The notes under the pieces: generated by a model | Database searches by the model: none | Seen by the model: the letters and a program-made list of their open reading frames with translations, nothing else | Told to the model about the DNA's origin: nothing | Position numbers and translations under genes: made by a program | Part shown: piece after piece, positions 11,966 to 58,700 of the stretch | How positions within the stretch are numbered: position 1 is the first letter of the stretch | How the letters are laid out: the number at the start of each line of letters is the position of its first letter | DNA from: Branchiostoma floridae | Lineage: Eukaryota > Chordata > Leptocardii > Amphioxiformes > Branchiostomatidae | Assembly: GCF_000003815.2 (NCBI RefSeq) | Contig: NC_049995.1 | Coordinates: 15,248,721-15,312,720, forward strand | Length of the DNA stretch: 64,000 bases | Direction of reading: 5' to 3'

Positions 11966-12176
11966 GTAAGATACACGGAGGAATGGTCCCAGGAATGATG
12001 ATATCTGATGTGTTTTTGTCTCATGTAGGTAAGATGACTGGGAATATGGTCCGAGGAAAGATCATATTACATTCATTGTTACAGTTATTTTAGTGACGTA
12101 GGCAAGATGCCGGAGGAAATATCTGCGGAATAATGTAAGTTGAATTGTTGTTATTGTTTTGTTTTTTCTGATGTAG
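11966..12176 (+). pseudogene. three truncated tandem copies of the 12177 exon head
   Basis: Starting at 11966, 12029 and 12102 are sequences resembling TAG|GTAAGATGACGGGAGG then AATGATCCCAGGAAAGATC, the head of the exon that begins at 12177, each with an upstream AG. Spacing is 63, 73 and 75 bases. None continues into the rest of the exon, so they look like decayed tandem duplicates of the intron end plus the exon head. Confidence 0.65.
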
Positions 12177-12301
12177 GTAAGATGACGGGAGGAATGATCC
12201 CAGGAAAGATCATGTCGCAGGTGCAGGCCCTGGCTACCCCGGACAGTATCTCCACTCTGGACAAGATGGGCATGCTGACCAAACTCGGACCCCTCGCTCC
12301 C
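12177..12301 (+). CDS. internal exon of a Gly-rich repeat protein
   Basis: Begins after a good acceptor (TTTTTTCTGATGTAG) in phase 1 and ends before GTAAGAATT. Encodes KMTGGMIPGKIMSQVQALAT then PDSISTLDKMGMLTKLGPLA and P, amphipathic and without cysteine. Spliced in phase 0 to the exon at 12772. Not recognised as any known family. The 5' exon is unknown; a hydrophobic leader at 8634 is the only candidate seen. Confidence 0.6.
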
Positions 12302-12771
12302 GTAAGAATTTTATTACCAGACAGATTCACTTGTGACCAGTTAAGTCCTTTTTGCCAGTTGTTCTCCTTGGCCAGCTTTTTACTATCGTATGCCACTGGT
12401 AAATTTTCTTGTAGGGAATCATCTATTCAAATGTGTCAATAGATAGTGTCCTAGCAAGGATACACAGTTGTTCATAGACCCTATAGCTATATAGAGATCA
12501 TATAGAATGTCACGTAGCTAGAATGTTGGCATTTTCTTTAGAGAATAGACATCGACATGCTAGCGCTATATACATGTATGTATTACTGTACCTGTAGTGT
12601 TGAGCCACATTTAACTAATTGTAGTCAACACGTTGGGGTTTCTATCTGCGTCGTTGCAAGACGATGACGATACTCAGTGCGAATTAATTTTTTTTTGTAT
12701 GATGTTGTAGAGGGAACTAAATACCTTTTCTTCATGACTTTTATTCCTTTCTTCTTGACAATACACTACAG

Positions 12772-14830: not shown

Positions 14831-14846
14831 GCGTTGGTGCTGTATA
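14831..14846 (+). pseudogene. broken tRNA-Gly copy (5' end only)
   Basis: GCGTTGGTGCTGTATA matches the first ~14 bases of the tRNA-Gly genes at 15032, 20710 and 21071 and is preceded by the same kind of flank (ACAGAAGACTGTTAATGTTG, CTTAAGAGTCATAAG) as the 20710 gene. The rest of the tRNA is missing. Confidence 0.55.
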
Positions 14847-15031
14847 CATTCATTTTTTTCTATAAAATTAAAGTATCAAAATTCACTCTTACGTTGTTCT
14901 TTCAGTTCGCAACAAAATTTCTCTGCCCATAATTACAACAGAATCTGTTAAACCGAAGGCAGGATTTCATTATCTATTATGACATACACAAAAAGCTCTT
15001 AATATTCTTTATCCTCTTGAAGCGTCATGCG

Positions 15032-15103
15032 GCGTTGGTGGTGTAATGGTCAGCATTGTTGCCTTCCAAGCAGTAGATCCGGGTTCGATTCCCGGCCAAC
15101 GCA
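15032..15103 (+). tRNA. tRNA-Gly (anticodon UCC), copy 1
   Basis: Starts GCGTTGG and ends CCAACGC plus A, giving a perfect 7-bp acceptor stem. A box TGGTGTAATGGTCAGC, anticodon stem GTTGC/GCAGT around loop CTTCCAA (anticodon TCC), B box GGGTTCGATTCCC. 72 bases, no intron. Confidence 0.93.
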
Positions 15104-15381
15104 ACGACACTTTTTATATATTCATTTTCAGTTTTACAATGAAATAAAAGTCTTGAAGTTCACTTAGACAGTCAGTTCGTGAAATTTGTCTGCCCAGTAA
15201 TACAACAGAATCTGCTACACTGAAGTTTAGCAGAATTTCAAGTCAGGCTGACCCATGATTAGTTTTAATTAAGAACATATAATATACACTTTTATTAAAT
15301 AAAGTCTTAACGGATATTGTTCTTGTCATCAACTGAAATTTCTCTGATTGGTAAAACCTCAGAATCCGTTACACCTAAGGA

Positions 15382-15877: not shown

Positions 15878-16835
15878 NNNNNNNNNNNNNNNNNNNNNNN
15901 NNNNNNNNNNNNNNNNNNNNNNNNNNNNNNNNNNNNNNNNNNNNNNNNNNNNNNNNNNNNNNNNNNNNNNNNNNNNNNNNNNNNNNNNNNNNNNNNNNNN
16001 NNNNNNNNNNNNNNNNNNNNNNNNNNNNNNNNNNNNNNNNNNNNNNNNNNNNNNNNNNNNNNNNNNNNNNNNNNNNNNNNNNNNNNNNNNNNNNNNNNNN
16101 NNNNNNNNNNNNNNNNNNNNNNNNNNNNNNNNNNNNNNNNNNNNNNNNNNNNNNNNNNNNNNNNNNNNNNNNNNNNNNNNNNNNNNNNNNNNNNNNNNNN
16201 NNNNNNNNNNNNNNNNNNNNNNNNNNNNNNNNNNNNNNNNNNNNNNNNNNNNNNNNNNNNNNNNNNNNNNNNNNNNNNNNNNNNNNNNNNNNNNNNNNNN
16301 NNNNNNNNNNNNNNNNNNNNNNNNNNNNNNNNNNNNNNNNNNNNNNNNNNNNNNNNNNNNNNNNNNNNNNNNNNNNNNNNNNNNNNNNNNNNNNNNNNNN
16401 NNNNNNNNNNNNNNNNNNNNNNNNNNNNNNNNNNNNNNNNNNNNNNNNNNNNNNNNNNNNNNNNNNNNNNNNNNNNNNNNNNNNNNNNNNNNNNNNNNNN
16501 NNNNNNNNNNNNNNNNNNNNNNNNNNNNNNNNNNNNNNNNNNNNNNNNNNNNNNNNNNNNNNNNNNNNNNNNNNNNNNNNNNNNNNNNNNNNNNNNNNNN
16601 NNNNNNNNNNNNNNNNNNNNNNNNNNNNNNNNNNNNNNNNNNNNNNNNNNNNNNNNNNNNNNNNNNNNNNNNNNNNNNNNNNNNNNNNNNNNNNNNNNNN
16701 NNNNNNNNNNNNNNNNNNNNNNNNNNNNNNNNNNNNNNNNNNNNNNNNNNNNNNNNNNNNNNNNNNNNNNNNNNNNNNNNNNNNNNNNNNNNNNNNNNNN
16801 NNNNNNNNNNNNNNNNNNNNNNNNNNNNNNNNNNN
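15878..16835. other. assembly gap (958 N)
   Basis: Unknown bases. The right edge falls directly inside the 62-bp tandem array, so the gap probably hides more copies of that array. Confidence 0.95.
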
Positions 16836-17205
16836 CCCAGCTCCTGTCGGGCTGATCGGCGGGGAGCAGTTCGGCACTAACCCGGCGTTCTTTCCTCCCC
16901 AGCTCCTGTCAGGCTGACTGGCGGGGAGCAGTTCGGCACTAACCCGGCGTTCTCTCCTCCCCAGCTCCTGTCAGGCTGACTGGCGGGGCCCAGTTCGGCA
17001 CTAACCCGGCGTTCTCTCCTCCCCAGCTCCTGTCAGGCTGATCGGCGGGGCCCAGTTCGTTACTAACCCGGCGTTCTCTCCTCCCCAGCTCCTGTCAGGC
17101 TGATCAGCGAGACGTAGTTTCGGAGTGGGTCGCAGTTTTGCACTAACCCGGTTATGATTCTCTCCTCCCCAGCTCCTGTCAGGCTGATCAGCGGGGCGCA
17201 GTGGT
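16836..17205. repeat. 62-bp tandem array, about six copies
   Basis: Unit starts CCCAGCTCCTGTCAGGCTGA then CTGGCGGGGAGCAGTTCGGC and ends ACTAACCCGGCGTTCTCTCC plus TC. Copies near the gap are close to identical; the last two are longer and divergent. Confidence 0.85.
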
Positions 17206-17317
17206 CTGATTTCTTAGTACCGAGGACGTAACTTTTGTGGGGAAACTTTAGGTTTTGACTCTGTATGACTGAGGATCGTCGATCGATTTAATGTTTTAAT
17301 TGGTTAGAATTCGCCGT

Positions 17318-20260: not shown

Positions 20261-20709
20261 GTGGTACAGCAGTCGGAATAAAACCGAGTGTCAGTCATTT
20301 GGTACTTTGGGTAATGATAGTTGCCATATCATGTACAATTGTCGGTCAATAAAGTTCTGTTCAAGTGTAGGTGTCTTTTCTGTGTTATATCTGTACAACA
20401 GAGCGCAACACATGATATTAAGTTTCGGAGCAATTCTTCACCTTTTCTGCTGAAGAGGATATTAGTAGATGGGGGGAGCACGGGAAAGAAGTGCAGTCAA
20501 ATTTTTAGCCCCCCCACCCACCCACCCCCTAAGTATTTTACGGGTAAGCATGGAATCTCGGATTCCACGATGCCTCGGTCTTCTCACCCCAGTCCTTAAC
20601 TCTCCACTGAGGCAACGTGAGTGGGAATATATTATTTTCACAAGTAGTGTTGTCTCAGGACATAAACAGAAGAATCTTAACGTTGGCGATTATCTTAAAG
20701 AGTCACAAA

Positions 20710-20781
20710 GCGTTGGTGGTGTAATGGTCAGCATTGTTGCCTTCCAAGCAGTAGATCCGGGTTCGATTCCCGGCCAACGCA
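20710..20781 (+). tRNA. tRNA-Gly (anticodon UCC), copy 2
   Basis: Base for base the same 72-base gene as at 15032. The upstream flank (CAGAAGAATCTTAACGTTGG then CGATTATCTTAAAGAGTCAC) resembles that of the broken copy at 14831, and the downstream flank (TTGAAATAAAAATTCTTGAAG) resembles that of the 15032 gene, so whole blocks were duplicated. Confidence 0.93.
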
Positions 20782-21070
20782 TTAATCCTTTTTATATCCA
20801 TTTTTACCTTGAAATAAAAATTCTTGAAGTTCACTCAGATATTGTCCTGTCCTTAATTTTTGTCTGACAAGTAATACAACAGAAACTGATCCATACATAA
20901 TTGTCATTCGTCTGTCTAGTCGACGAGGACCGCTTCTGTCATCATCTTGTTTATCATTCAGATAGATCATCATGTACTAGTAGGATACAAGTCTGGCCCA
21001 TAATAGATTTTGTTATTCGGACATACACAGAAGGCTCTAAACGTTCTCTATTCTCTTCCAGCGCCATGCG

Positions 21071-21142
21071 GCGTTGGTGGTGTAATGGTCAGCATTGTTG
21101 CCTTCCAAGCAGTAGATCCGGGTTCGATTCCCGGCCAACGCA
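21071..21142 (+). tRNA. tRNA-Gly (anticodon UCC), copy 3
   Basis: Identical in sequence to the other two copies. Preceded by CTCTTCCAGCGCCATGCG, like CTCTTGAAGCGTCATGCG before the 15032 gene, pointing to duplication with flanks. Confidence 0.93.
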
Positions 21143-21574
21143 ATAAGAGTTTTAACACTCCATTTTCCTCTTTTCATTAACTGCTAATAGAATAAAAGCT
21201 ACAAAATTCGATCGCTCATGGCTCTTATCATGAGGCGATGTTTTATGTAAAAGAATCATAAATGATCGTAGACTTGTATGTCTGTGAGTTGTTCCAATGT
21301 CTGTGAGCTGTTCCACAGGACTAAGTTCTTAACATTGTGGCAGCAATGTGGCTTAATACGATGGCCTAAAGCATTGCAACCTCCAAGCAGTGTAGTTGGT
21401 TTTCATGCCTCCCACACAAGATGGTACATAGGACAGCGCACAACTCCGTATCAATAGCCCTTGGGACACACAACCTTGAGCAATCACTACAGCATTGACT
21501 GGTCCACTGGTACAGACAGTGTGACAGACTGGTCGATTCGAAAAGTCGCCAGACTAGAAAGATTTTTTTGTGTG

Positions 21575-21968: not shown

Positions 21969-23023
21969 TTACAAAGGATCGTAGACTCTTGAGATAGTCA
22001 GAGAGAGCCCTGAATCCAAAAACTGTGTTATCATGACATAAACACAGTACAAAACTGTCAACGGGAGACTCTGACTGTAACTTAGCGACGATGTCCCCCC
22101 AACGAGATACTGTCGGAATTTGAAGGGTGGGCATGGGGTTTTCGTCAGATTCAGTGTGTATGTTAGATTGAACCTTTTCCATAATTCTTCAACACTTGAA
22201 GAACCGTCTGTCCCAGTGTCACCGTTACCAGATCCAGGTTTCCATCCAGGTGGATACGTACCGTTGCCGTACGGGCCGCCATTCGGAGTCCACCAAGATG
22301 GATACGTACCGTTTCCGTACGGGCCACCGTTGGGACTCCACCAAGATGGATACGTACCGTTTCCGTACGGGCCGCCGTTGGGACTCCACCAAGGTGGGTA
22401 TGTACCGTTTCCGTACGGGCCACCGTTTGGACTCCACCAATCCGGATACGTACCGTTTCCGTACGGGCCTCCATTCGGGGTCCACCAAACTGGATACGTA
22501 CCGTTTCCGTACGGGCCGCCATTCGGTCTCCACCAATCCGGATAAGAACCGTTCCCGTACGGGCCACCGTTCGGACTCCACCAAGTTGGGTACGTACCGT
22601 TTCCGTACGGGCCACCGTCCGGACTCCACCAATCTGGATATGTACCGTTTCCGTAAGGACCACTAGTCGAAGTCCACCAATCCGGATATGTTCCGTTACC
22701 ATACGGGCCTCCATTCGGCCTCCACCAATCCGGATATGTACCGTTGCCATACGGGCCACCGTCGGGACTCCACCAAGCTGGGTACGTACCGTTTCCGTAC
22801 GGGCCACTAGTCGAAGTCCACCAATCCGGATATGTACCGTTGCCATACGGGCCACCGTTGGGACTCCACCAAGATGGATATGTACCGTTTCCGTACGGGC
22901 CACTAGTCGAAGTCCACCAATCCGGATATGTACCGTTGCCATACGGTCCACCGTCCGGCCTCCACCAAGATGGATACGTTCCGTTACCGTATGGTCCACC
23001 GGTTCCTGGGATCGAGTCATTCC
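21969..23023 (-). CDS. mosaic gene exon 9: NGTYP/DWW repeat block B and C-terminus
   Basis: From the acceptor TATTCTACAG the frame reads [20 protein letters not shown], then 15 regular 16-residue units, then [14 protein letters not shown] and a unique tail ([20 protein letters not shown], ..., SRVYDPL) to TAA at 21969-21971. The tail has two extra sequons and a moderately hydrophobic stretch ([20 protein letters not shown]). The repeats are closer to one another than to those of block A's start. A possible donor GGATCTG|GTAACG near 22235, also phase 1, would skip the unique tail, so the stop exon is not certain. Confidence 0.6.
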
Positions 23024-26000
23024 CTGTAGAATACGTATATGATATATAATCAAAGTTTGATTCAATTACCTGGCGTCAGAAATCAAGAACTGGAAGTACG
23101 AATAGCATCATTTTTGACGGAGGTACATCATTTCGAACAAATAGAACCCCTGTTCTATATAGAACACCTGCATAGAACAGGGGGTTCTATTTGTTCGAAA
23201 TAGTGTTCGACAGGTTCGGTCTATTGTTCGCGGTAAAAAAAATCCTTTACCTGTTGTGATTGCGAAGAAGTTCATTTCCGTGAGGAAAGGCTGCCCTCCC
23301 CCGTAAGTCTCCGTGACCACGAACCTCCAGTACCGAGCCGTGGCCTCAAAACCGCCGAACTCCTGCGTCTCACTCGTCCCGTTCAGTACGTCATCAACAG
23401 ACACCACGTCCTCCCAGCTGTACGGGCTCCCGCCCTGCGACATCTGCAGCGTGAAGGCGGCGATGTCGTGGGTGGTGTCGCCGTAGTTGTTGACTGAAAT
23501 ACCGGTCAGAGTTTGTACCTGGGTGAGGTCCAGGACTATGTACCAGCCGCTGGAGTTGTCATTGTTGTTACCTAGAGAGAACGAAAGATTAACAACAATG
23601 AATGGAGGAAGGTATGAAGGAATGAAGGAAGGAATGAATGAAGGAAGGAAGGAGGGAAGGAAGGAAGGAAGGAAGGACTGAAGGAAGGAAGGACGGAAGG
23701 AAGGAAGGAAGGAAGGACTGAAGGAAGGAAGGAAGGAAGGAAGGAAGGAAGGAAGTAAAGAAGGAAGAAAGGAAAACTGTCTTGGTAGTAACATTTTATA
23801 GTGAATTTAGACAACCCTGTGATTGTGATTGTAAAACATATCTGTTTCTTTGTTTCTACATTTCACCATTGCAAAGAAGCGAGAAGTCGAGCTCAGTAGA
23901 AGGCAAATCCTTGTGCTCGGTTCACATTGATTAACTGCATTTCTCAATTAATATATATACATGTAGTCGGTACCTTGTGGGTTCCAATACGTTGTACTGT
24001 TCCCATCCAACACTTTCCCTGCGTCGTATGTTACCCCGTTGCTGTCGACGTGCGGTGTGCCGGTGGAGTCAACAACCCATGAGGGGTCCATTGTCAGCCA
24101 TTCACCTAGTGAAAGGGGTACAGAATCGTTAATCAAGCTATATGTTTATAGAACAAAATATAGTTTGCAGTTCCAGAGCAAGCTGCTAGGGGGCCCAAAC
24201 ATGACTCGCCTTTTCCTTACATCACAAGCTATCTGGCGCCAAAATATTTAGACCGTACCTTCTCCAAGTCAAAAGATACAGAAATATAGACGTTCTGCTG
24301 CAGTGCCCAGATTACATACTAGGGGGCCCAAAATTGACCTTGACCTTCGGCTTCCCAACACCTGCCTACAAACCACGTACCATCTTAATCCGTTAAAAGG
24401 TTCTTGAGTTATGCAGGCTACAAAAATATGGAAACACACACACACAAACACGCACACAAATACATACACTCACACAGACACACCCAGAAATATCGCCATT
24501 TTCATGGATAAAAAGAGAACGGAAAGCATTCACGTAATTTTTGTCCAAGCAGTCTAAATTGCAATATTTTGAAAATAAAGATTGTGTAGTGCAATTTATA
24601 TGAAACCACCGTCATTGACGTGATATCCCAAAATATCATATTTTTCAACAACAGATATACGTTATGTCACCCCGTAAATACTTGCGTAGCCTTTCAAAGA
24701 CATGATTTTGACACGGAAAAGATACCATGATACGTACCGTTGGCATAAGGGTCTCCACCAGTCCCGGATTCAGGGCGCCACCAGGGAGGATATGTACCGT
24801 TTCCGTACGGTCCACCGTCCGGACTCCACCAATCCGGATATGTGCCGTTGCCATACGGGCCTCCATTCGGACTCCACCAATCCGGATATGTACCGTTTCC
24901 GTACGGTCCACCGTCCGGCCTCCACCAATCCGGATATGTGCCGTTTCCGTACGGGCCTCCGTTCGGACTCCACCAAGGTGGATATGTACCGTTACCATAC
25001 GGGCCGCTAGTCGAAGTCCACCAATCCGGATATGTACCGTTGCCATACGGGCCTCCGTTCGGACTCCACCAATCCGGATATGTGCCGTTTCCGTACGGGC
25101 CTCCGTTCGGACTCCACCAATCCGGATACGTACCATTTCCGTACGGGCCACCGTTCGGACTCCACCAAGCTGGGTACGTACCGTTTCCGTACGGGCCGCC
25201 ATCTTCAGGATACGTCCCGTTTCCGTATGGCCCATCTGGGTACGAACCGTCCCCTCCAGGCGTATACGTACCATTAACATAAGAGCTGTTACCACATGGA
25301 TACGAGCCATTTCTACACGGCCCACCTCCTCCATGTGGGTACGTGCTGTTACCGTACTGGTCACTACCGTTTCCAGACTGACCAGGGTACGTTCCATTCC
25401 CGTATCCGGGTGGGTAGGTACCGTTACGGTTGGGATACGTGCCGTTTCCGTACGGCCCGCCTGTGTTGGGCCCGTAATTACCGGATGAGGAACGTGTGGT
25501 TGCCGCAGCTGTGGTGGTAGGAGGAACCCAGTCTGGATATCTTGACGGGAAAAGTGGTGCTGGAAGTAGATGAGAAAAAGTGCGATTACTCTCTCTTTCT
25601 CTGTTTTCCTTGGTTTGTCTGTTTGTTTGTCTTTCTGCCTCTCTCTCTCTCTCTCTGTCTCTCTCTGTCTGTCTCTCTCTCTGTCTCTCTCTGTCTCTCT
25701 CTGTCTGTCTGTCTGTCTGTCTCTCTGTCTCTCTCTGTCTCTCTCTCTCTTTCTTTCTTTCTGTGCACTTCATTATTACTGCCTCTGTTTCCATCTCTCT
25801 ATCTCTCTTGTCTGATAATGTCACATTTTCCCTCCAAGACATAATGAATCCAACAACCCACAGCCTCAACGGCTAGTCTCTACCAGACTCCGGTCTGGAC
25901 GAAGTAATAGGTGACTTTGGCCAAATTAGGAATAAAAGCCTAGAAGTAGTTAATTGGCCTAGGAGTGAACTATCTGGACGGCGGATAGCTGCCTAGGCTG

Positions 26001-29000
26001 CAAAAGACTGACTGAAATCCCATGGCAACTTATAGATATTTGTCCCAAGTTCTTCTCTTTTTTCACCCAGCTGACACAAGGCCGGCCTCAAAACTACTTT
26101 TTTTATGAAAGATTCTCACCACAGAAGTTGATATCCTCGTCTCCCGCGTCGTTACAGTCCTGATATTCGTCGCAGATGAAGTGTTCGGGGATACAGATCC
26201 CGTCGCTACATTCAAACTGGTCCGCTGCGCAACCTGGAAAATGCATTGTGTAATCATAGGACATAGGAATTTTCTCTTACACAACCAGTTTATCTCACCT
26301 GCTGACGTTTCGATGTCTGTCAGACATCTTCCTCAGAGCTTCTAACTGGAGTTCTGCTTCTCGCCGCTATATGTAGCCGATGTAGGTGGCGCTTTTCCTC
26401 TGAGGAAGGTGTCTGACAGACATCGAAAAGTCAGCAGGTGAAATAAACTGGTTGTGTAAGAGAAAATTCCTATGTCCTATGATCCACCAACCTGATGAAA
26501 TTATTTTCGGAAATTGTGTAATCATTCCGATGTCACAGCTCAAGCACAGCCAGCATCACGTGTAGGAACGTTTAAAGCCAAGGACAAGAGCACTACCCTG
26601 ATTTTTGGAGGGTATTCATGGAGAAAATGAAAGCACGAACAACCGTATGTTTTCTTTGCCTAAAATGATTGCAATCTTAATCCAAACATTGATGTATCAA
26701 CAACTAAAGGAGTCAATGAACAATGAACAATAAACAATAAAAGAAAAGAGCCATAATAGCCGCTAGAGTTCTTGTCCATGCCTTTAAGATCTTCATCAGT
26801 AATGAATGAATTCTTAAGGGCTACTGTCTGTACTTTTGCATTGTCAATTTAGTGACAGCCGTCATGTAGAAACTTTTAGCCATATTTGGTCGACAAAGCT
26901 TATTTCTGCTATAGTGGCCACAGATATATGTGGCCCAAGGGCTATAGAAATGGAGATAGGCACCGCCCTATTCACCGAAAGAAGTGAGAATGGTTATCAA
27001 AATTATAGTAATAAACTGGTGAGTAAGGATAGCCCGTGTGCATCATACGTGAATTACGCACCCTCTGGTGATTTCTTTCAACAATTATCTATGAATTTGA
27101 ATTAGTAAGTGTACTTAACACCACTCTGCTGTAAGCATTAAAGCACGTGTTATGAAGTGTGTGATCCTAGTAATTCTCACCACACCTCGCTTGTAAATTC
27201 ATCTAAAACATATCCTACAAGCACGACTGCCACCAGGAATCATAAAAGCATATAACACAATTCACCTTTTTTTTTATGCGGGTAACATTAACCTATATAT
27301 GTTGTATTCAGAAGTAGAGGTTTTTAGGGATGTTAAGGCGACTAACGGTAGTTTCAAATTACAAAATTTTCAAAATCTTGCAGTGTGAAACGTCCATCCC
27401 CAAGTACCATGTTGTCAAAACCAACGGATATAGGTTACCCCGCGGATAAAGCTTCTTCATTAGCACCCAATTATGCACCACCAGACCACCGCAGATTTTA
27501 GCCTTTGTGGCTAACTTACGACAGTCTTGTTCGTCGCTGAAATCCTCACAGTCGTAAAAATTGTCACACACAGTGGAGTGAGCTATGCACACGAGGTTTA
27601 GCACGCACTGAAACTGGTCGTCCCGGCAGCCTGGAGGAAGAGCGGTACAGTACAAATTGTCACACACAGTGGAGTGAAAGAAAAGTGGAACAGTACAAAT
27701 TGTCACACACAGTGGAGTGAAAGAAAAGTGGAACAGTAAAAATTGTCACACACAGTGGAGTGAAAGAAAAGTGGAACAGTAGAAATTGTCACACACAGTG
27801 GAGTGAAAGAAAAGTGGAACAGTAAAAATTGTCACACACAGTGGAGTGAAAGAAAAGTGGAACAGTACAAATTGTCACACACAGTGGAGTGAAAGAAAAG
27901 TGGAACAGTAGAAATTGTCACACACAGTGGAGTGAAAGAAAAGTGGAACAGTAAAAATTGTCACACACAGTGGAGTGAAAGAAAAGTGGAACAGTAAAAA
28001 TTGTCACACACAGTGGAGTGAAAGAAAAGTGGAACAGTAGAAATTGTCACACACAGTGGAGTGAAAGAAAAGTGGAACAGTAGAAATTGTCACACACAGT
28101 GGAGTGAAAGAAAAGTGGAACAGTAAAAATTGTCACACACAGTGGAGTGAAAGAAAAGTGGAACAGTAGAAATTGTCACACACAGTGGAGTGAAAGAAAA
28201 GTGGAACAGTACAAATTGTCACACACAGTGGAGTGAAAGAAAAGTGGAACAGTAAAAATTGTCACACACAGTGGAGTGAAAGAAAAGTGGAACAGTAAAA
28301 ATTGTCACACACAGTGGAGTGAAAGAAAAGTGGAACAGTAGAAATTGTCACACACAGTGGAGTGAAAGAAAAGTGGAACAGTACAAATTGTCACACACAG
28401 TGGAGTGAAAGAAAAGTGGAACAGTAAAAATTGTCACACACAGTGGAGTGAAAGAAAAGTGGAACAGTACAAATTGTCACACACAGTGGAGTGCGCTATG
28501 CACACGAGGTTTAGCACGCACTGAAACTGGTCGTCTCGGCAGCCTGAAGGAAGAGTAGTACAGTAACAGTAACAGTAAAAATTGTCACATACAGTGGAGT
28601 GAGCTATGCACACGAGGTTTAGCACGCACTGAAACTGGTCGTCTCTGCAGCCTGGAGGAACAGCGGTACAGTACAAATTGTCACACACAGTGGAGTGAAA
28701 GAAAAGTGGAACAGTACAAATTGTCACACACAGTGGAGTGCGCTATGCACACGAGGTTTAGCACGCACTGAAACTGGTCGTCCCGGCAACCTGAAGGAAC
28801 AGCGGTACCAGTCATATCGTTATGCTACAGCAACTTGATATGATTTTGGCAAAAGTTAGAAGTTTCAAACAACATCCGTTGTTAATTGTCACACACAGTG
28901 GAGTGAGCTATGCACACGAGGTTTAGCACACACTGAAACTGGTCGTCTCGGCAGCCTGGAGGAAGGAGCGGTCATACCATTATTAGTAGTACTAGTAGCA

Positions 29001-32000
29001 ACTTAGCAACCGTATACTGTATCAATTAGTTGATCTGTGCATGTTAAAATTAAGGGCTAATGACCCTCCCCGAGGTGTATATGGCATTATAACGCCTGGT
29101 CCTTTGCCATAAACACCGAATAAAACCACCGAGAGAGCCAATGCCTGCATATCCCTTATTTTCCTATGTATTGCTCCTTCTAATTGGCCGGTGTCGGTGT
29201 CAATTCATTCTGACCAATCAGAACTTAAGGAGCGATAAACACCGGGCTGGCCGGAATCTATGTGTTACGGCATAATAACCAAGGTGGGAGAGGGGCTTCT
29301 GATTGGTCCGCGGCGCCTGACTATATGATAATTTAGATTATTCACTTGTAATTAGCCCACATACAATCATGTCATGTTGGAACGTTAGTATCAAAAGTGA
29401 GCCAGTGTTACATCCATTGCATCAGGTTGGTACGTCACTGAATAGAATGACTTTTTTACGAAACATTGTTTAATTCTCACCAACGTTTCGGTGACCGTCT
29501 GTCACCTTCTTCAGGGCATATACTAGTACTTTACGTTTTGTAACCGCATCTAAACTGTGATCAGCGACACCTGTCCTAGCCTCGCATGCTGCAGTACAAT
29601 GTGAACCACTCAAGATTGCCCTGAAAAAATGTTGATGAGAATAAAGCGACAGATTTGTAAAAAAAAAGGATCTTTATTCTGAACTAACTTAGTTTTCAGA
29701 TTCAGTTTACATTATAGTCTTGATCTTCCTTGCACTTGGTTCACTTCTTGTGGGTGTAGCTGGTTTGTAGCTTTAAAGCCTCACTTGGTATCCAGATTAT
29801 GCCTTCTTATTATATACGTAGTGTATCTATATGTTGCCACTTAAATTTTACTGTGTTGCACGTGCTGATGTAATTTTCATGTGAGGGAGGGCAACTTGTA
29901 ACCCATCAGTTTGAGATGAATACAAGCGAACAAATAAGTTCTAAGATCCAATGGACCGATCCTGTCGAACGCCATATCGAACAAATAGAACCCCTATTCT
30001 ATTTCGAACACGTCCGTCAAAACCTGTCCCCGTGGGACAAATGTCTATTTTTGACGGAGGTGTTCGAAATAGAACCATGATCGAACAGGGGCGGGGTTTT
30101 GGGATCTGTCCATTATAAAGAATTTTAGAATTTCTCACTTGGTTTGTTATCAGAGCCCGAGTCTCCTCCTCCGTCAGTACCACCATTGCTGCCACCGGTA
30201 TTGTTACCAGCACCCGCACCGGTGCTGTTACCAATGCCGGCACCATTGCCGCTGCCTCCGGTACCGCCACCATTGCTGCCACCGCCTGTATCTCCAGTTC
30301 CACCAGAGGAGCCACCACCTCCAACGCCTGTACCTCCACCGTTGTCTCCGCTGTCACCAGTACCTCCATTGCCATCTGTACCTCCACCGGTACCTCCACC
30401 AGCGCCTCCACTACCATTTGTACCTCCATCGGTTCCAGTACCCCCACCTCCACCGATATTACCACTACCATCTGTACCTCCACCGGTACCGGTACCTCCA
30501 CCCGTACCTCCACTACCATCTGTACCCCCACCTCCATCCGTACCTCCACCGGTACCGGTACCCCCACTACCATCTGAACCTCCACCGGTACCGGTACCTC
30601 CACCGGTCTCAGTACCCCCACCTCCAACAATACCACCGCCACTATCTGTACCTCCACCGGTACCTCCACCATTTCCTCCTCCCGTGCCTGTACCTCCACC
30701 GGTACCTCCACCGTTACCAGTACCATCCGAAGGGTTCGAGGTTCCTTCTACGGTGTAGTCCGTAACTGCGGTGTGATCGTCCGTGGATTCCGTGGTTGTA
30801 GAATCACCACCTTCTGTACCACTGTTACCGGTTGACGCAGTTGGCGATCCACCTAACCCTTGGTTGTTGTTAGATTCTGTAGCTTCTGTTGAATCTTGAT
30901 TATTAGAATCTCCTGATGACCCAGATGCAGACGTTGCTTGGGATGATGCCATCTCCTCTAGTGATGTTTGTACATGTGTGGTGGCCATGGTTGTGGTCAT
31001 GAGCGTTGTAGGAAGCGCCGTTGTAGTCTCCGGGGTGGTTGTGATTGTTGTCGTTGTCAGTGTGGTCGTCGGTAGTGTTGTCGTTGGAACTATAGATGCA
31101 GGAATAGTAAAAGTTACATGCGACCGTAAGAAGAATTTAATTACCTTGTAGAAACATCCCTTTTAGGTATATTCTAGCAATAACATGAAAACCTTCCCAT
31201 TGTCACATTTACTAAGACACAAATTTTAATATCATGACGTACTCACAATGAAAAATGCTAATTGCAGGTACAAAGCTATTTTGCTACTGTAGAAAATAGA
31301 TAGTACCAAGAATATCAATGATCGCAGACCTCACACGCTTGTCAATACTTTTTGCAACCCTTCTAGACCCACCTACAAGCACAATAACACTTGGGATGAT
31401 TTTGAAATCCTGCTTTGTGTACATCAAACATTGCAGAAACACATGCAAACATACATAGATATACAAATAGACAAACCATAAAATCTTCACTTTCGTAAAA
31501 TGAGGTTATCTTTAGAGTAATTTAATTTTTACGATTAATGAAAATAAACATAGATGCTGTGGTTACCGCAGTTCGGTACGGGACAGTCGTGGAACGAGAG
31601 CTGGTCATCATTATACGGGTTGAGGATGAAACAGTACGGCTTCCTGTCAAACTCCGGAGTCGGGTTCCTGCAGAAGTTCTCCTCCAGATGGTAACGCTCG
31701 AAGTCGCTGGGCCTGTAGAAGGCTCTGACCATGGGGGAACTCCAGGGGAGGCAGTCCAGGCTCGACGTGGTGAAGTTGATGGTGCCCCGGTAGGTTTCGC
31801 CTAAACCGTCGTAGCATTCCCTGAAGGGGTCGGCTAGAACGACAAAAGAACATGCAACAACATTGAGTCACTCTTTCTACTAGAGGCTGTGACCTAAGAG
31901 TGTCCAAAGAATTGACAGATCACTCAACTAATTTCATTATTAAAGAACTCCAGGGGAGGCAGTCCAGGCTCGACGTTGTGAAGTTGATGGTTCCCCGGTA

Positions 32001-34687
32001 GTTCTCGCCCAAACCGTCGTAGCATTCTCTGAAAGGGTCGGCTAGAACGACAAAAGAACATGCAACAACATTGAGTCACTCTTTCTACTAGAGGCTGTGA
32101 CCTAAGAGTGTCCAAAGAATTGACAGATCACTCAACTAATTTCATTATTAAAGAACTCCAGGCAGTATAAGCTGGACGTGGTGAAGTTGATGGTTCCCCG
32201 GTAGGTTTCGCCTAAACCGTCGTAACATTCTCTGAAAGGGTCGGCTAGAACAAACAAAAAAATGCAACAACATTGAGTCACTCTTTCTATTAGAGGCTGC
32301 GCTGTTGAGACCTCTGAGCGTCCAAAGATTTGACAGATCACTCAACTAATTTCAATATTAAAGAACTCCAGGGGAGGCAGTCCAGACTGGACGTGGTGAA
32401 GTTGATGGTCCCGCGGTAGGACTCGCCTAAACCGTCGTAACATTCCCTGAAGGGGTCGGCTAGAACAAAAAAATGAAACAACATTGAGTCATTCTTTCTA
32501 CTATAGGCTTCGACCTATGAGTGTCCAAGGATTTGACAGATCACTCAACTAATTTCATTAAGAACTCCAGGGGAGGCAGTCCAGGCTCGACGTGGTGAAG
32601 TTGATGGTACCCCGGTAGGTTTCGCCTAAACCGTCGTAGCATTCCCTGAAGGGGTCGGCTAGAACAATAACAACAAAAACATGCAACAACATTGAGTCAC
32701 TGTTTCGACTATAGGCTGCGACCTATGAGTGTCCAAAAGAATTGACAGATCACTCAAATAATTTCATTATTAAAAAATTCCAGGGCAGGCAGTCCAGACT
32801 GGACGTGGTGAAGTTGATGGTTCCTCGGTAGGACTCGCCTAAACCGTCGTAACATTCCCTAAAATGGTCGGCTAGAACAAAAACATGCAACAACATTGAG
32901 TCACTCTTTCTACTATAGGCTTCGACCTATGAGCGTCCAAAAGAATTGACAGATCACTTAACTAATTTCATTATTAAAAAACTCCAGGGGAGGCAGTCCA
33001 GCCTGTAAGTGGTGAAGTTGATGGTGCCCCGGTAGGACTCGCCTAAGCCGTCGTAACATTCCCTGAAGGGGTCGGCTAGAACAACAACAACAAAAACATG
33101 CAACAACATTGAGTCACTCTTTCTACTAGAGGCTGTGATCTATGAGTGTCCAAAGAATTGACAGATCACTCAACTAATTTCATTATTAAGTTAAAGAACT
33201 CCAGGCAGTATAAGCTGGACGTGGTGAAGTTGATGGTTCCCCGGTAGGTTTCGCCTAAACCGTCGTAACATTCTCTGAAAGGGTCGGCTAGAACAAAAAT
33301 AAAAACATGCAACAACAGTGAGTCACTCTTTCTACTTTCTCAAACAAGATGCAACAAGGAAAGGGACATTACCACACGTGGAAGTCACCACGGAAATACT
33401 TAAACATTAGCCAGGTACTTGTAAACCGGGCCCGTCAACTGAACATTCTCTAAAGGGGTCGGCTAGAACACAAACATTGACAAACATCCTGTGTGGAGTG
33501 GGGTAAAATCTAGTACCATTTGACTCATTCAGTCAATTTCTCAAACATGGAAATACTGTCATCTAACATCTAGTGTAGAGTGGGAATATATAACTCCTTG
33601 GTTTGACTCACTCATTCAATTTCACAAACTTGCATAAACTGTCAACAAACGTAACATCTTGTGTAGATTGGAAATATAAGCATAGATTCACACTAACTCT
33701 CAGAGCTATTGATGAAGGCAACGACTAATAATTGTTATCTCATATTCACGGCAGACTGCGCCTAATGTAACTCAGTACTCGTCTCAGCACCATTTGCTTT
33801 CACGCCTTGGGAGACTTGAGACTTTATTTGAAAAGGTTTACTCCTTTTTTCTTGAAACAATGGAAGACGAAAGATCCTACTTTTTTCTGTATTGCGTGAG
33901 TGTTGTGATGGTAAAAGCATTATGATTTTATTTTAGTCTCTGTATAGGTGGAGAAAATAGATGAAATTTGGTGGCTTCTAGAAACAAAGCCCTTCAATCG
34001 TGATTGTAGAATGGAATGTGACGGAAAATAAATGTAACTCGCCTTCGAACATGTTTACGGTACAGTGCATTAATCACTATTGCAGTGAAAATGATAATAA
34101 ATTGAGACTGCCCATGACTCTCTTCATTGTCTGTTTTCTGTTGTAGATTGTACATAGCGTGTACACACAGTGGTCCAATGACTCAGACTTTATCACATTA
34201 GAAGTCCCACCTTAAGAGTTGTCAGCGCCCATTAACCTTTGATATTAGAGACAAAACACAAGTAAAAGCATACGTCGACTGGAGTTAGCAACATTGTCCA
34301 TTACTGTTACTTTGAATGGATCGGCACAGAAAACAGGACACCGTGTAATGTTAAGATTGACAACATCAATTTATGTTCATTTTGGTAAATGCATTGATTC
34401 CGAACTGGCATACATGTAATTTGAAGTTCAGTGTCATTCATCTTACAACGTAAACATGGTAATCAGAGATAGCAGACTTAATGTAACTCATACATTCGCA
34501 TATACGCCCCCCACCCCAACCACACACATAAATCCACGCACATACCGACACTTAGCGCACACATGCACACACACACACACATACACATACACAGACACAT
34601 TAACACACACACACACACACACAAACTCACACACACCGACATTCACATAAACACACACATACATGAACATTAACACACAGACACACG

Positions 34688-49704: not shown

Positions 49705-52700
49705 GTAGGAGCCTGCTAGGAGAAAAGTGTTAAGATCTTTTAGGTACACAGTAGAAGCCGTTTAATTGCACGCCCCATATGCCAGCGTATTTTGTGCAAT
49801 TATCTGGATGGTGCAATAATGCAAAATTATACAGCTGGATTGCACCAGTTTGTGACTCAGTGCAATAAACAAAAGTGTGCCGTAATCCGTTGTGCTTCTA
49901 GTAAGTTCTACTGTAGTATCTCCTAGACCTAGTCCTACTTTGTATGTACAGGTGTGTACAAGTCTTCCCAACTTCAGTTTATGGTGAGTCGACTGTGCAC
50001 ACAAACCTTCTTTAACGCATGTTTTATAAGTCACATGCAAAATGTACATGTTCGCTGTAGTTGCAGTAGTTACTGGTCCTGCTATATTGCTACATTGCCT
50101 ATACTTTTTTTTTATAGTCTAGGGATTCAATACTATAGGTGTCCTTGCATGAACGTACTAGGATGGTACTCAGACTTGTATCGATATGCATGGTCACTAG
50201 AGAAAGGTACCAAAACACTAGTCATCAACACAGAAACAAAAGACCTGTCTGTTACCCTGCAAAGTACCAGACAAGAGATCTTGTTACAGCAGGACTTGGT
50301 TCACTGGAGAGGCTAACTCTGTTATTAACACTGTTGCTACCACATGTACCAGTGCTGACATTCCACTGGGCTTACAGCATACTTTTTTTGGTGCAGGCAA
50401 AATTTAGAATTACCTTACCAAACACAGTTTGCCTGCACCACTCTATTATTTGTTGAATTTTACTAAAGTTCATCAAAAAAAGATTGTGGCAGTATTATCG
50501 AACCTGGTGGAATTATGAGAGTTTATGTTACATGTAACTACAGGGTAGACATCAGAGTCAGGGTTGTCCATAGGAGAGCTTGTTAAAATAAACTGAATGA
50601 AGGCCTAAAAAGTACTAACCCATATTTTAATCTTTAAAATTCTTTTCCATCAGAAAGTCACTTGGGTCTTTAACCATTCAAAGAATACAGGGTTGTTAGG
50701 CTCATTCTCGAAAAAAAGCTCACTCTATGAAAGACTCTTAACCTCACAATTGACCCAAGTTCCCTCCTTATACAACTGGTAGCACCCATCAACTCAAATC
50801 TGTTTTTACACCAACTAAACTGCTGAACTGAACAAATTTTGACCAATACAGGAGAGCTTAGACCCTACCTGTCCTTTTTTAATCAAAAAGTCACCAGATT
50901 GGGCAAAAGCATTCAAGGAAAATAAGGATTTTCAAGGAATTGAAGTGGCACTAAAATCGTATTTCCCATTTTGTGCCCTCTACTGCGCAATACAACGTGA
51001 TGTCAGCCATACACTAAACCTGACTGTGTAGATGGTATTTGAAGCCTGTACAAGACAGGGTTGAGTGGACAGAGTAACAGTGCTAAAACTTCATGTTTAT
51101 AAGATGCACTCGAGTATGACTCTGAAAATAAATGTGGAGAATAGGGTACCAGCTAGTGCAAACAGGAGCGTAGCCTTCCGAAAACAAACAAGTGAACTCT
51201 AAAATGCCACTTGCACAGCAATGTACGTGTACAGTTGTTACTGAACTGTACAGCAGAGCAAATTGTGACAGAAGGGTACCATTGCCTTGTGAAAACATAC
51301 AAGTGAACTTTAAAATACCACTTGCACAGCGTGCAGTTACATATACAGTTGTTACTGAACTGTATAATAGAGCAAATTTTAACAGAAGGGTACCATTGCC
51401 TTGTGAAAACATACAAGTGAACTTTAAAATACCACTTGCACAGCGTGCAGGTACATATACAGTTGTTACTGAACTGTACAATAGAGCAAATTTTAACAGA
51501 AGGGTACCATTGCCTTGTGAAAACATACAAGTGAACTTTAAAATGCCACTTGCACAGCGTGCATGTACATGTACAGTTGTTACTGAACTGTAGGGCTGAC
51601 GTCAGAGTTGCGTTGCGCGGTAGAGGGCAAAAAATGGGAAGACGATTTGGGTGTGACTTAAAATCCTTGAAAATCCTTCTTTTCCTTGAAAATTTTTGCC
51701 CAATCTGGAGACTTTTTGAGTTAGAAGAGACAGGTAGGGTCTAAGCTTTCCTGTTTGGGTCAAAATTTGTTCAGTTCAGCAGTTCAGCTGGTGTAAGGAC
51801 AGGTTTTAGTTATAGGGTGCTACTGGTTGTATCAGGAGGGAAAATGGGTCAAAGGTGAGGTTTCTTTCATAGAGCGAGCTTTTCTCCGAGAATGAGCCAA
51901 ACAACCCTCTGTTTTCTTTGAATGCTTATAAACTAGACCCAAGTGACTTTCTGGTGGAGAAGAATTTTAAAGATTGAACTATGGGTTAGTACTTTTTTGA
52001 AGCCTTCATTCAGTGTATTTCAACATGCTTGTCAATGGGCAGCCCTAACTTCGATGTCTGACCTGTACTGCCCCCCACCCCCATTTTGCATTTGAGGCCT
52101 TTTGAACCATAAAGCTGTCTCAGATTTGCTGAAACCATGTTGCAATATCGTATACAAGAGGTTTTGTCAAGTGTGGACCCAGTTTTGTGCATGAATTTCC
52201 CAAAAATGTAGCAAAAATGTGATATTTTGTGATTTTTTGCAGCATAAAGTATGTGCATGCATGTATTGGAAGCTGTCAGGAATAACTCAGATAGCATAGA
52301 TTACTACAAAAGTGGTATGAATTCAATGAAAATGATGGACTTAATGATGATTTAGTCCCATGTAATTGTATGCCTTACCAATTAGGACCTGCCAATCATA
52401 ATGTGCCCTACTGGTGTTCACCCCCCCCCCCCCCAGCAACACTGACTTGGATACTTTTTGATCCTATGAGACCCTAAAAAGAGGAGCTATTGCAAATAAT
52501 ACTCCTGAATGTAGTACAGGGCAATACTTGCTGTCCATTAAACAGGATTTTGCTGTATGTAGGGACATTTCAGCTGTGTAATGTTGTGTTTTGTGTGTAC
52601 AGTTTGCCAGTTTCATTGAAACAGCATTGTATGAAAACTAGTAAAAAAAGTTGTAAAAAAAGAAAACCCTCTATTGAAAAGTTGCAATTTTACATCAGAG

Positions 52701-55700
52701 ATGTAGAACTGACTATGGTTAGTAGTTATTAAGACTTGCTAAGAGATAAACACCTATGGATTTTGGAAAAGTCACATGACTTTTGGTACACTACCCCACT
52801 GCTTTACATGCCTTATTGCATGGGGTAAGCTGTGGTGCACTGGGTATAGATTTGGCTCTAAATTCCCAAGGGAGCAATCAATACAGTTCATCTTTGGGAA
52901 ACGCTATCGCATCCCCTCCCTGTATCAGCTGGGATAATAATTTTTCCTCAACTCCCTTATTCGGGTACCCAGTAGGGCTGACGTCAGAGTTGCGTTGCGC
53001 GGTAGAGGGCAAAAAATGGGAAGACGATTTGGGTGTGACTTAAAATCCTTGAAAATCCTTCTTTTCCTTGAAAATTTTTGCCCAATCTGGAGACTTTTTG
53101 AGTTAGAAGAGACAGGTAGGGTCTAAGCTTTCCTGTTTGGGTCAAAATTTGTTCAGTTCAGCAGTTCAGCTGGTGTAAGGACAGGTTTTAGTTATAGGGT
53201 GCTACTGGTTGTATCAGGAGGGAAAATGGGTCAAAGGTGAGGTTTCTTTCATAGAGCGAGCTTTTCTCCGAGAATGAGCCAAACAACCCTCTGTTTTCTT
53301 TGAATGCTTATAAACTAGACCCAAGTGACTTTCTGGTGGAGAAGAATTTTAAAGATTGAACTATGGGTTAGTACTTTTTTGAAGCCTTCATTCAGTGTAT
53401 TTCAACATGCTTGTCAATGGGCAGCCCTAACTTCGATGTCTGACCTGTACAATAGAGCAAATTTTAACAGAAGGGTACCATTGCCTTGTGAAAACAAACA
53501 AGTGAACTTTAAAATGCCACTTGCACAGCGTGCATGTACGCGAACAGTTGTTACTGAACTGTACAATAGAGCAAATTTTAACAGAAGGGTACCATTGCCT
53601 TGTGAAAACATACAACTGAACTCTAAAATGCCACTTGCACAGCGTGCATGTACATGTACAGTTGTTACTGAACTGTACAATAGAGCAAATTTTAACAGAA
53701 GGGTACCATTGGCCTTGTGAAAACATACAAGTGAACTCTAACAACATGCCACTTGCACAGCATGCATGTACGTGTACAGTTGTTACTGAACTGTATACTA
53801 TAGAGCAAATTTTAACAGTAGGGTACCATTGCCTTGTGAAAACATACAAGTGAACTCTAAAATGCCACTTGCACAGTGTGCATGTACATGTACAGTTGTT
53901 ACTGAACTGTACAATAGAGCAAATTTTAACAGAAGGGTACCATTGCCTTGTGAAAACATACAAGTGAACTCTAAAATGCCACTTGCACAGCGTGCATGTA
54001 CATGTACAGTTGTTACTGAACTGTACTATAGAGCAAATTGGGTCAGGAAGTTACCGTGGCCTTGTGAAAACATACAAGTGAACTCTAAAATGCCACTTGC
54101 AAAGTGTAAATCTTAGGCTGTCACTCAACTCTACAATGGAGAACTCTGTAGGAAGACAAGCGTGTTGGAACAAAATGTAGCAGATGATGACTTGTGCTGT
54201 GCAGTGAACCAAGTCTTGTTGCAAAATGAGAAAATATCTGCCACTCCATTTAAAAAAGGTATGGCAAATAAATACTAATATCAATAGAATGTCATTCCCC
54301 CATGCAAAGAAGATATGAAAGAACAGAAATAAAGAACTTATTGTTCTGTATTCCATACTCTGTGTTCAGTCATTTGTTCAACCGTTTGTTTGTTTGTTTA
54401 TCTATTTTCAAACACCTGGGTAGCCTATTCAGTGCTAATACACTGGTTTTCAACAGGGTCCACTTAGACTTCATTATGAATGAAACTTTGCTTTTAGACT
54501 TTTTTTCTATCATTTGCTTGCTCACATCAATTTTTTTGATTCCCAGAGGATGTCCTCCGTATCTTCAAATCATCATGGTCTAACATTAGGGCTGTGTACC
54601 TAAACAAATTTCAGGTACAGGTACACGGGTCCGGACCTGCACCTGTACCTAGAAAAGTTTAACCAAGTATATGTAAGTTAAACATGTAGCTGTCTTTTCT
54701 TGTCATCTTTGAATGAGGAATTACATATTTGAATCTCAAAACAATTTCTTTGCAAGTTTTCTTAAGTTTCAACTGCAAGATTATCATCATTGTCATTGTC
54801 ACTTGTCCAGCAGTCTTAAAAAGTTGTTTAATAGTGATTTAGTTTGTTTAGGTACAGGTACAGGTACACAGATGTTTAGGTCCGGACCTGTACCTAAACA
54901 ATTTTTTAGGTACAGTACAGGTACGGGTATTTAGGTACACAGCCCTATCTAACATACATGTATATGTAAGAATTTGAAAGTCTTGATCAAGTTTGTAATG
55001 AACCACTGTTTTATTGCAGTACAATGGCATGATGAGGACCCCTAAGGAGTTTGTTGTGGAGGCGGGAAAAGCTGGTCTGAAGGACTGGAAGAGAGCCATC
55101 AGGATTAATGGAACCATGATCAGGTAGGTTGTCAACTTATATGTTATATTTACCATGTTCAACAGTCCCTTCAACATTGCATATACAACAGGTTAGGAAG
55201 CAAAGGTATCCATGGTTGAACTGGATAAGTAATTCACATTAACTTGTGAACAGTACAGTACTGTAGTACAAAGTTTTATGTACAAAAGTTTTTACATGCA
55301 AAAAGGGTATGTGGTAATGGTCAAGTGAGATCCGGAAAGACACAACTAACTTGGACTTTTGGGAGGCAATGGACGGAGGCCAAGACAAATAGGAGGACTT
55401 TTTCAAGAGGATATACAAACAACAAACCATGTCTACACATAATCATGGATACTAAGCTCAACTCTGCTTTATTAGAATGTCCCAATGTGTATTGCTAATG
55501 AATGTTATCTTTTTACGTCAGAAAGGCTGATTCTGGTTGCAAGTACAGCAATGGGCATCATCTAAGAAATGCGATTTCATCTAACATGTCATCTAAAAAA
55601 TGCAGTCTTGCACCACTGTAAACAGTTACATGTCTACTGAGCCTCCATTAAGTTAAGAATTAAATGATATTTCTGTCCATCAGGCGAATGATGGAGACAG

Positions 55701-58700
55701 GTGAGCTGGATTACTACCAGCACGAGCAGGTGTGCTCCAAGACGTGCCGCAGTAACCGCTTCGACGTGCCGTCAGGTGTGGCGCTCCAGCTTAGTCTGCA
55801 GGCCAGCGGGCTCCGGCCACCTGAGTTCGTACAGACGGAAGGACAGGGCATACCACAGGTAAAGAAACTTTCTTCCTTTCTGTCATATCTGTATGCTAAA
55901 TACATTATGAAAAAGAAACTGTGGCCAAGTAAGTACATACTAACGGAAGGACAGGACCTAGTCTCTTAACTGGTGGTAAAACTACTAAAAGACTCAAGCC
56001 CCCAGAGTGTACAGAGTGAGGGTCAGACAGCATTCTGTTATTGTTAAGATCGCTTCCTACTGTACCTACAACCTTCTTAAAGTTCAAGACGAGATCTACC
56101 AGGTTGATTAAGAAACAGAATACATCTCGAAAGTTTCCCAAGTTACGAACTGCAGTTGTGTGTAATTTTGTTAAAAATTTTGTCAAAAACATTCTGTCTG
56201 TCTTTGTGTTTGTATGTTTCTTTCATCTTTGTGTTTCTCTTTTTGAAATGTTGACAGTGCAATTGTTTCCAAACATCTTCAATTTTATTCTGTGTACATG
56301 GGACTGTAAGAATCACAAAGCAGGAAGTAATAAGGGCAGAGTGGGTGAAATCTGCCCTCTCTGATTGCCTGTATTTATGTTGTGATTGTTGAGGATTTGA
56401 AGTTTGTTTGTTTTTTATTCTAGATGGTTCCAGCAGAGAGGCTGTACGCAGCAGCTGCAGCTCTAAGTGCCTCCACTCCTCGATTCACTCCAACATCTCC
56501 TACTCCTGTGTCTCCAGAAGGTAAGGAACCTTGTCTTAGCTCTCAAGATGTCTGAATTTCTGGTCTTCAAAAGAACACAGTAGGACTTAAATTAAGATAA
56601 GTTATAAACTAGATGCTGTTAAGTTTGTTGCTTGGCTGTTGAGCATGCTGTTAAGTTTAAACATTCAAATGTAAGATGTGTAAACATTATTGATTGCACA
56701 GGTTGTCTATTTGAAATGTCAAATGCTGTTCTGCAGTCAAAGATCAACTTTCTAACATCTTAGGTTCAGTACATTTAGAATAGAACCTCCAATAAACATT
56801 TGGTTGATGTTAATAATTGCTGTGTGCCTATTATCATGGTCCTTGCTTTTTATCAGAGAATGTCTTGACATAGGTGATGATGGGTAGACATTTAGGTACA
56901 TTGTTTCACAGAATGAACTACTTGTCTGTACATAAATAAGACATTATGTACTTGATTTCAGATTCCCTGCTGTTCTGGTCAGGTATCCGTGAAGTGGGCG
57001 TGTTGGACGGAATCTTCACCTGGATATTTGATGCCCTGTCTGACTTACAGCAGTGTGTGCAGCACGGGTCCTGCACTGCAGAAGGTTGGTACTTCAGACA
57101 TTACTAGCCTCATTAAATCTCGCTTTTAGCAGCCCGCCCAGTAACATCCGCTGGCTTCTCTGTGGGGAGGGGCCAGTTAAAGCCCTGGACAACGGAGTTT
57201 GTGTTACACAGACTAAGGCCTCACCAGTTTACTTTCTTCTTCTTCATCAGTTTATGTACTGCCATGCCCCTTCAAAAAGGATTACTAGCAGTGCACATGT
57301 GTCAGTAACAAGTGATCGGAACAAATAAATATAGGGAAAAAGGGAAAGACACTTAGGATCATAAACAACTGATTTGTGGGTGCAGAGCTAGACAAGCATA
57401 ACTGAATTTAGTGGGTATTATTAGCAATGGAGCAATGCCCTCCCCAATTTGGTTTTTACCAGGAGAGAGGCCCCTCCTCTGCCACACCAGGCTCAATTTC
57501 GTTCCACTCTTTGATGGTGCGAGGGAAGAACGAGTGTGCACCTTAAAAGCGTGGTTGGTGTGGAAGGAGCATCAAGTCGCCAGGACCAGATTTGTTTTGA
57601 GTGGTAGGAGAAGAAGAGTAGTTCAAGCTCTGTTTGGCAGTGTAAGACAGTATGCCTGAATAATAGTGAATTAGTGAATATTGAAGAAACAGTTCACCCG
57701 CAGATGTCACGAAAAATCTTTGGAACTTTATCTGTGGATGCTCAGATGTTTTGAATGGTCTTGGCCTAATGGAAGAGGTAAAAGCTCGTCTGGCCCAACA
57801 GAAATCATTAAAACTTAAAGATAAAATGAAATAACTTGGTACTGTGTTCGTAGATGCCCAGATGCTGACCAGTGTTCTGAATGGGCTGGGCCTGATGGAA
57901 GAGGTAAAAGCCCGTCTGGCCCAACAGAGATAATGAAACTGACAAATAAGACAAAATAATGGAGGTTTGGTACTGTGTTTGTAGATGCCCAGATGCTGAC
58001 CAGTGTTCTGAATGGCCTGGGCCTGATGGAAGAGGTAAAAGCTCGTCTGGCCCAACAGAAGACCGAGGCCGACAGGCAGGTCGAAGAGTACAACCGAGAT
58101 CTGCAAGGTCAGCAATCTTCCACACATATCCTGGGTGAATATTTTATGATTACCTTAAACTAACCAAACTGCATGGGACGACGCACCCACTCACCCCCTC
58201 TAATGGTACGGCCCAGTCATGACCCTATATGGACATGGCACCAAATATGGTATGGTGTTCCTGACCATATTTAGCCATGATTGCCAAATATGGTAACCCT
58301 TTTTCTGACCATATATAGGCATGATTGCCAAATATGGTTTGCCCGACCCAGACCATATATATGAGCATGATGCCAAATATGGTACTAAAATTTTCAAAAA
58401 ATTGTTACTATTTTTTCACAATTCCTTCTTATTTGGAAATATTGCCCTTTACCCTTTATATCATTGAAAGAAGAAAATTTGACTGTTAATTTTAAAAGGA
58501 ATGAATTTGAAGGATGTTTGGTCAAAAAAAGTTTCAAGGCCATGTTGCCATATTTGGTAGTGACTCAAGCTGGTGGAATGTTCCACTTTCTAAAGAGGGG
58601 ATGAGTGGGTGCCCAGACTGTGACAACTCACTGCATGGAATCAAGTCAACAATCAAACAATAATCAACAAATGTCAAATGAAAAAAAACTGAATGTATTA

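Follow-up and report, generated by a model that had tools for sequence, protein, structure and literature searches.

Tandem duplications of exon-intron boundaries, termed mirages, are reported from amphioxus Adh3, from the globins and from other loci in the available sections of PMC3087553, and troponin C is also mentioned as a case in those of PMC3902484. According to the same sections of the two papers, mirages carry AG/GT signals, have units of 10-160 bp and differ in unit number between haplotypes (PMC3087553, PMC3902484); differing lengths among haplotypes or body cells also characterise the class. BflGb6 of Branchiostoma floridae bears head-side repeats of 150-160 bp, with haplotypes of six and of three units, while BflGb9 of the same species has a donor-side duplicate of 157 bp (PMC3087553, in part). 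The available text of that paper also mentions concerted evolution within the BflGb6 clusters, takes Adh3 data and globin RT-PCR to suggest that splicing is regular and, in the legend of its Figure 6, allows duplication at 5' and 3' boundaries alike. Two arrays are described in PGBD5, whose first repeats abut the 5' splice site, plainly so at exon 4 and less plainly at exon 3; re-examined Sanger and new Illumina data confirm these repeats (PMC3902484, in part). The accessible portions of PMC3087553 describe B. floridae as highly heterozygous and report an aberrant draft assembly for one BflGb6 haplotype. Unit numbers in any assembly may therefore be wrong.

The window analysed here is a stretch of 64,000 nucleotides of the B. 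floridae genome. It contains four arrays which, judged from their sequence, are new members of the known amphioxus mirage class and ordinary in kind. A first-pass annotation of this DNA had suggested a genome-wide process, and the description of mirages in several amphioxus genes bears this out (PMC3087553, PMC3902484, both in excerpt).

Truncated exon heads in the window

The features concerned are the following.

11963..12120, plus strand: three decayed Gly-rich head copies (first exon bases 11966, 12029, 12102)
12177..12301, plus strand: intact Gly-rich exon (GKMTGGMIPGKI...), donor GTAAGA at 12302
27520..27630, minus strand: intact LDL receptor class A exon (Pfam LDLa, E 2.4e-9)
27647..28493, minus strand: 43-bp minisatellite of 19.7 units (repeat finder)
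28473..28972, minus strand: four LDLa head copies (first exon bases 28543, 28651, 28790, 28955)
31567..31833, minus strand: intact kringle exon (Pfam Kringle, E 1.2e-18)
31834..33336, minus strand: seven kringle head copies (starts 32041, 32244, 32459, 32658, 32871, 33075, 33287)
33444..33474, minus strand: kringle stub, an acceptor with about 19 exonic nt (exon part from base 33462)
57719..57803, plus strand: GMEB head copy 1 (first exon base 57738), AG lost (TGTGG), 10-bp deletion
57836..57928, plus strand: GMEB head copy 2 (first exon base 57854), acceptor intact
57985..58107, plus strand: intact GMEB exon (DAQMLTSVLNGLGLMEEVKARLAQQKT...), AG/GT flanks, open frame

Repeat finders, self-alignment and direct reading agree that all four exons have, on their 5' side, tandem copies of intron end and exon head at the places where they had been annotated: three for the Gly-rich gene, seven and a stub for the kringle exon, four and a 43-bp minisatellite for the LDLa exon and two for the GMEB exon. 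The four arrays are confirmed as genuine repeats, far above chance; none of 1948 random pieces of the window attained the score of the weakest copy of all, the short third Gly-rich one. Exon ends in the window are predicted from AG and GT flanking an open frame, and exon lengths and flanks were rechecked. Pfam gives nothing convincing in the Gly-rich and GMEB exons themselves. The gene name GMEB comes from an ORF about 2 kb upstream that matches the GMEB1 structure 1oqj (E 7.7e-7).

Copy starts are spaced 63-75 bp apart in the Gly-rich array, 116-131 bp in GMEB, 108-165 bp in LDLa and 199-215 bp in kringle. The annotation held that every copy ends before the second half of its exon, which is correct for kringle (at most 97 of 267 nt covered) and for the Gly-rich exon (acceptor AG plus about 18-37 of 125 nt in each copy), but not for LDLa (about 71 of 111 nt) or GMEB (74 of 123 nt). 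The acceptor AG, a splice signal of the mirage class, was likewise said to be kept throughout: it is present in 16 of the 17 copies, the stub counted, with TTCTAG in all seven kringle heads and CAG in all four LDLa heads, and is missing from GMEB copy 1. The statement that the copies contain no donor is a loose one, since Gly-rich heads 1 and 2 start with GTAAGA directly after the AG, and the GMEB heads contain GAGGTAAAAG, a sequence also found within the intact GMEB exon. When read from the acceptor in the frame of the parent exon, all 17 copies reach a stop before the intact exon. Thus they are not plain in-frame exons, and the inclusion of any one in full would require a cryptic donor. The observed layout fits the mechanism originally proposed, a tandem duplication whose two breaks lie in the intron and in the exon. 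No donor-side array was seen within the window, whose other exons are only partly annotated.

The 43-bp minisatellite is built partly of LDLa exon interior, which contributes 22 nt to each unit, and a single 43-bp unit sits between two of the LDLa head copies. An inverted repeat at 26253-26483, with 86-nt arms 97% complementary and 59 nt apart, lies directly upstream of a minus-strand LDLa-coding stretch and resembles a small fold-back element. Coding repeats of 48 bp occur on the minus strand next to the LDLa and kringle exons, at 22251-23001 and 24788-25197; an ORF with an F5/8 type C domain separates the two places.

Other repeats are found in the window. At 15878-17202 a run of 958 N is followed directly by an array of 62-bp units that contain TCTCCTCCCCAG and look like a repeated splice acceptor. 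This array (16836-17202) was considered as a fifth mirage and left uncounted, because its intact exon was not found and the N run borders it; that exon may lie within the N run. The region 51173-54141 contains two 114-bp arrays separated by about 2 kb, and a stretch of 479 bp there is repeated at 100% identity (51590-52068 and 52972-53450), reflecting either a recent duplication or an assembly duplication. A tRNA-Gly (TCC) is duplicated in a repeat of about 148 bp (20658-20804 and 21019-21166), and a third lies at 15032-15103.

Arrays at both exon boundaries

The assembly searched comprises 513 Mb. A globin search gave nine matches, with one head-type and one tail-type array among them, so that both exon boundaries are affected across the genome. 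In the head-type locus, L031, the exon is preceded by three head copies whose starts follow at intervals of 154-158 bp; the locus appears to fit BflGb6 haplotype 2 in side, unit length and number. In the tail-type locus, L027, the exon tail and donor are copied 157 bp downstream; direct reading reveals that the exon end and its donor-side copy both finish with CTGTTCGAC followed immediately by GTAAGTAG. L027 fits BflGb9 in side and unit length and is believed to be the same locus. Repeats at globin loci L030, L026 and L023 lie outside the matched exon part.

Of 528 candidate kringle exons, 150 were scored; 40 of these 150, hand-picked for contig spread, were fetched with 500 bases on each side. 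Two head-type arrays (L037 and L064) and no tail-type array were detected among the 40. Overlaps in L032, L038, L053 and L070 fall on other listed kringle matches and were taken as neighbouring exons. Repeats that start at or past the donor (L048, L052, L055) or make no contact with the matched exon (L040, L042, L059, L061) were counted as intronic. Two short decayed copies in L037 are preceded by a longer head copy at 1-118, of which 118 nt with 92% identity are visible, the start lying beyond the edge of the locus; one exon can thus have copies with differing break points.

No head or tail copy was visible among 87 chaperonin matches (PF00118) from 76 candidates, a search in which short copies could be missed, and an overlapping chaperonin pair on C2 that was fetched contained no duplication. 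Twenty random stretches of 10 kb (200 kb) yielded 26 local duplication clusters. Scanned by eye for synonymous bias, these gave no clear exon-boundary array; exons in these stretches are unannotated, and decayed arrays are invisible to such a scan.

The first-pass annotation had made a rule of the 5' position and derived a selective filter from it. The corresponding explanation assumes a polarity throughout the genome, whereby decoy donors downstream of an exon are harmful and decoy acceptors upstream of it harmless, and only head arrays arise or survive. All four window arrays and both arrays among the 40 kringle exons agree with it, but four of four on one side gives a two-sided p of 0.125, and donor-side arrays exist, namely L027 here and BflGb9 and PGBD5 in print (PMC3087553, PMC3902484, in part). 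These exclude a strict 5' rule and make the general explanation unlikely; the selective filter, which had been deduced from the polarity, is left unsupported. The count of heads against tails that the annotation proposed, here made on a small census, stands at three to one outside the window among 49 exon matches with flanks (9 globin, 40 kringle), or at 3:2 or 3:3 when the PGBD5 arrays, as printed in the accessible part of PMC3902484, are added. It speaks against the strict rule and does not contradict a moderate head-side bias, which may exist.

Substitutions in the copies and the kringle mosaic

The copies in five of the eight arrays differ from their working exon mostly by synonymous changes, an observation that is new here. 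Synonymous changes make up 19 of 27 distinct changes in kringle, 6 of 6 in LDLa, 8 of 10 in GMEB, 12 of 16 in L031 and 9 of 12 in L027; Gly-rich copy 3, the kringle stub and the 43-bp units are left out of these counts. There is no such excess in the Gly-rich array (4 of 13), in L037 (13 of 36) or in L064, which was trimmed to 45 nt, with junction letters removed, and has 4 synonymous and 4 other changes. In GMEB copy 1 the count depends on gap placement, with 5 synonymous and no other changes when aligned by hand, and 6 and 2 by MAFFT.

Where the exon itself accepts synonymous changes alone, a freely decaying copy of it would show a synonymous fraction of at most about 0.40-0.47. Compared with this bound, P is 0.005 for kringle, 0.007 for LDLa, 0.04 for GMEB, 0.009 for L031 and 0.05 for L027, modest values when taken singly. 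Pooling these five arrays, which were picked after looking, gives 54 synonymous of 71 changes (P = 2e-7). All eight together give 75 of 128 against 44% (P = 5e-4), to be read with the arrays being a non-random sample with no outgroup root, with changes within one array being non-independent because they share its tree, and with a slight lean to synonymous, since the call takes either codon as background.

The kringle array is a mosaic in which heads and introns have different histories. The working exon and copy 2 have 0 of 111 differences in the intron and 7 of 97 in the head (Fisher 0.004), whereas the working exon and copy 5, whose head is the nearest to it, have 1 of 97 in the head and 9 of 111 in the intron (Fisher 0.02); copies 3 and 8 have 0 of 92 in the head and 16 of 70 in the intron (5e-7), these three pairs having been chosen after looking from the 28 possible. 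This pattern fits no single duplication register tried by eye, so a transfer of sequence among the units, with the working exon taking part, is probable.

Within their intron part, the kringle units contain a dispersed repeat of about 60 bp (32306-32366 in the window, and the matching stretch of other units), which the outermost unit lacks. The array has one full match in the assembly, which represents one haplotype, and its other 19 genome matches, of 78-88% identity, all lie on the dispersed repeat; six genomic places of this repeat that were fetched are alike in that stretch. The repeat ends where the truncated exon head joins, and by eye GAAC stands on both sides, as would be expected of a microhomology join.

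Synonymous excess could also arise if the copies were used and translated in alternative transcripts. Besides the excess in five of eight arrays, this proposal could draw on the acceptors retained in 16 of 17 copies and on the donor-like GT within the GMEB heads and two Gly-rich heads. It is made improbable by the stop that all 17 copies reach in frame before the intact exon and by GMEB copy 1, which has lost its AG and suffered a 10-bp deletion, yet has mostly synonymous changes. Moreover, globin RT-PCR and Adh3 data suggest regular splicing (PMC3087553, in part). A simpler model is that each copy is a snapshot, born from the working exon and decaying freely with no exchange. The Gly-rich, L037 and L064 arrays conform to it, as does the unit pattern of L031. 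Extended to all arrays it is doubtful, though less so than translation of the copies, because it predicts no more than about 40-47% synonymous changes against the proportions observed in the five and in the eight arrays and leaves the kringle mosaic unexplained.

It could finally be argued that the arrays are artefacts, in which alleles of a very heterozygous genome have been placed head to tail by the assembler. The differences do look allelic in being synonymous, the window contains an N run, and both the high heterozygosity of B. floridae and the aberrant draft of one BflGb6 haplotype are on record (PMC3087553, in part). Yet one sharp truncation point recurs up to seven times, unlike what false allelic duplications would produce, and the BflGb6-like array is present again in the assembly searched (L031). 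With the Sanger and Illumina support for the PGBD5 repeats added (PMC3902484, in part), an artefact is very improbable.

Proposed origin and likeness to known systems

The reading that we consider probable as a whole is that of mirage arrays formed by boundary duplication and unequal exchange, with one working copy and silent copies that exchange or decay. A tandem duplication that spans from an intron into the adjoining exon would copy the boundary, giving the layout described above, and the array would then expand and contract through unequal exchange, a step taken from the published class. Of the copies in a head-type array, the last alone retains the rest of the exon and the donor. Given that acceptor and donor are paired across the exon, splicing should use only that copy and skip the upstream acceptors. 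Tail-type arrays are the mirror image at the donor side. In arrays that still exchange, the working exon and the silent copies would pass sequence to each other; as the former is under selection for its protein, the latter should carry mainly synonymous differences. Arrays that no longer exchange (Gly-rich, L037, L064) would decay.

We infer from the synonymous pattern that silent copies exchange with one working terminal exon, and exchange as such is argued from one array only, the kringle mosaic. A case for exchange in L031 was withdrawn, since its heads 2 and 3 are identical and so are the introns that follow, which amounts to simple duplication. The nine synonymous changes in 93 nt of L027, and likewise those of GMEB copy 1, look high for recent exchange. 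It is only tentatively, and with the balance somewhat against it, that we propose that continuing exchange keeps the silent copies coding-like, that selection on the terminal copy polices them and that the arrays provide the working exon with a reservoir of silent alleles. Should the excess prove general across the genome, recombination would be frequent enough for selection on one copy to shape its silent neighbours. The excess also cautions against taking a coding-like substitution pattern as proof that an exon copy is used. Mirages place strong-looking decoy splice sites beside real ones and are therefore natural tests of exon recognition; they are also a proposed source of new introns.

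Like published mirages, the arrays described here are tandem boundary repeats with repeated splice signals and an intact exon at one end, and both boundary types occur genome-wide. They differ in that the kringle units exceed the 10-160 bp range, and in that neither their hosts (the kringle/LDLa gene, GMEB and the Gly-rich gene) nor a synonymous excess or a head/intron mosaic is mentioned in the available sections of PMC3087553 and PMC3902484. No report of a synonymous excess in silent mirage copies was found in the openly licensed literature, as far as the accessible text goes. Gao and Lynch, as cited in the available part of PMC3087553, described how duplication across AG/GT can turn repeat units into introns or exons, and the duplication of splice sites is alike here. 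Unlike in their cases, no new intron is seen, and the copies appear to remain silent.

In gene/silent-copy conversion systems, silent partial copies swap sequence with one expressed copy. Unlike in those systems, variation in the arrays is mostly silent, with no sign of programmed or diversifying exchange. The likeness lies in the partial silent copies, which are proposed to exchange with one working exon.
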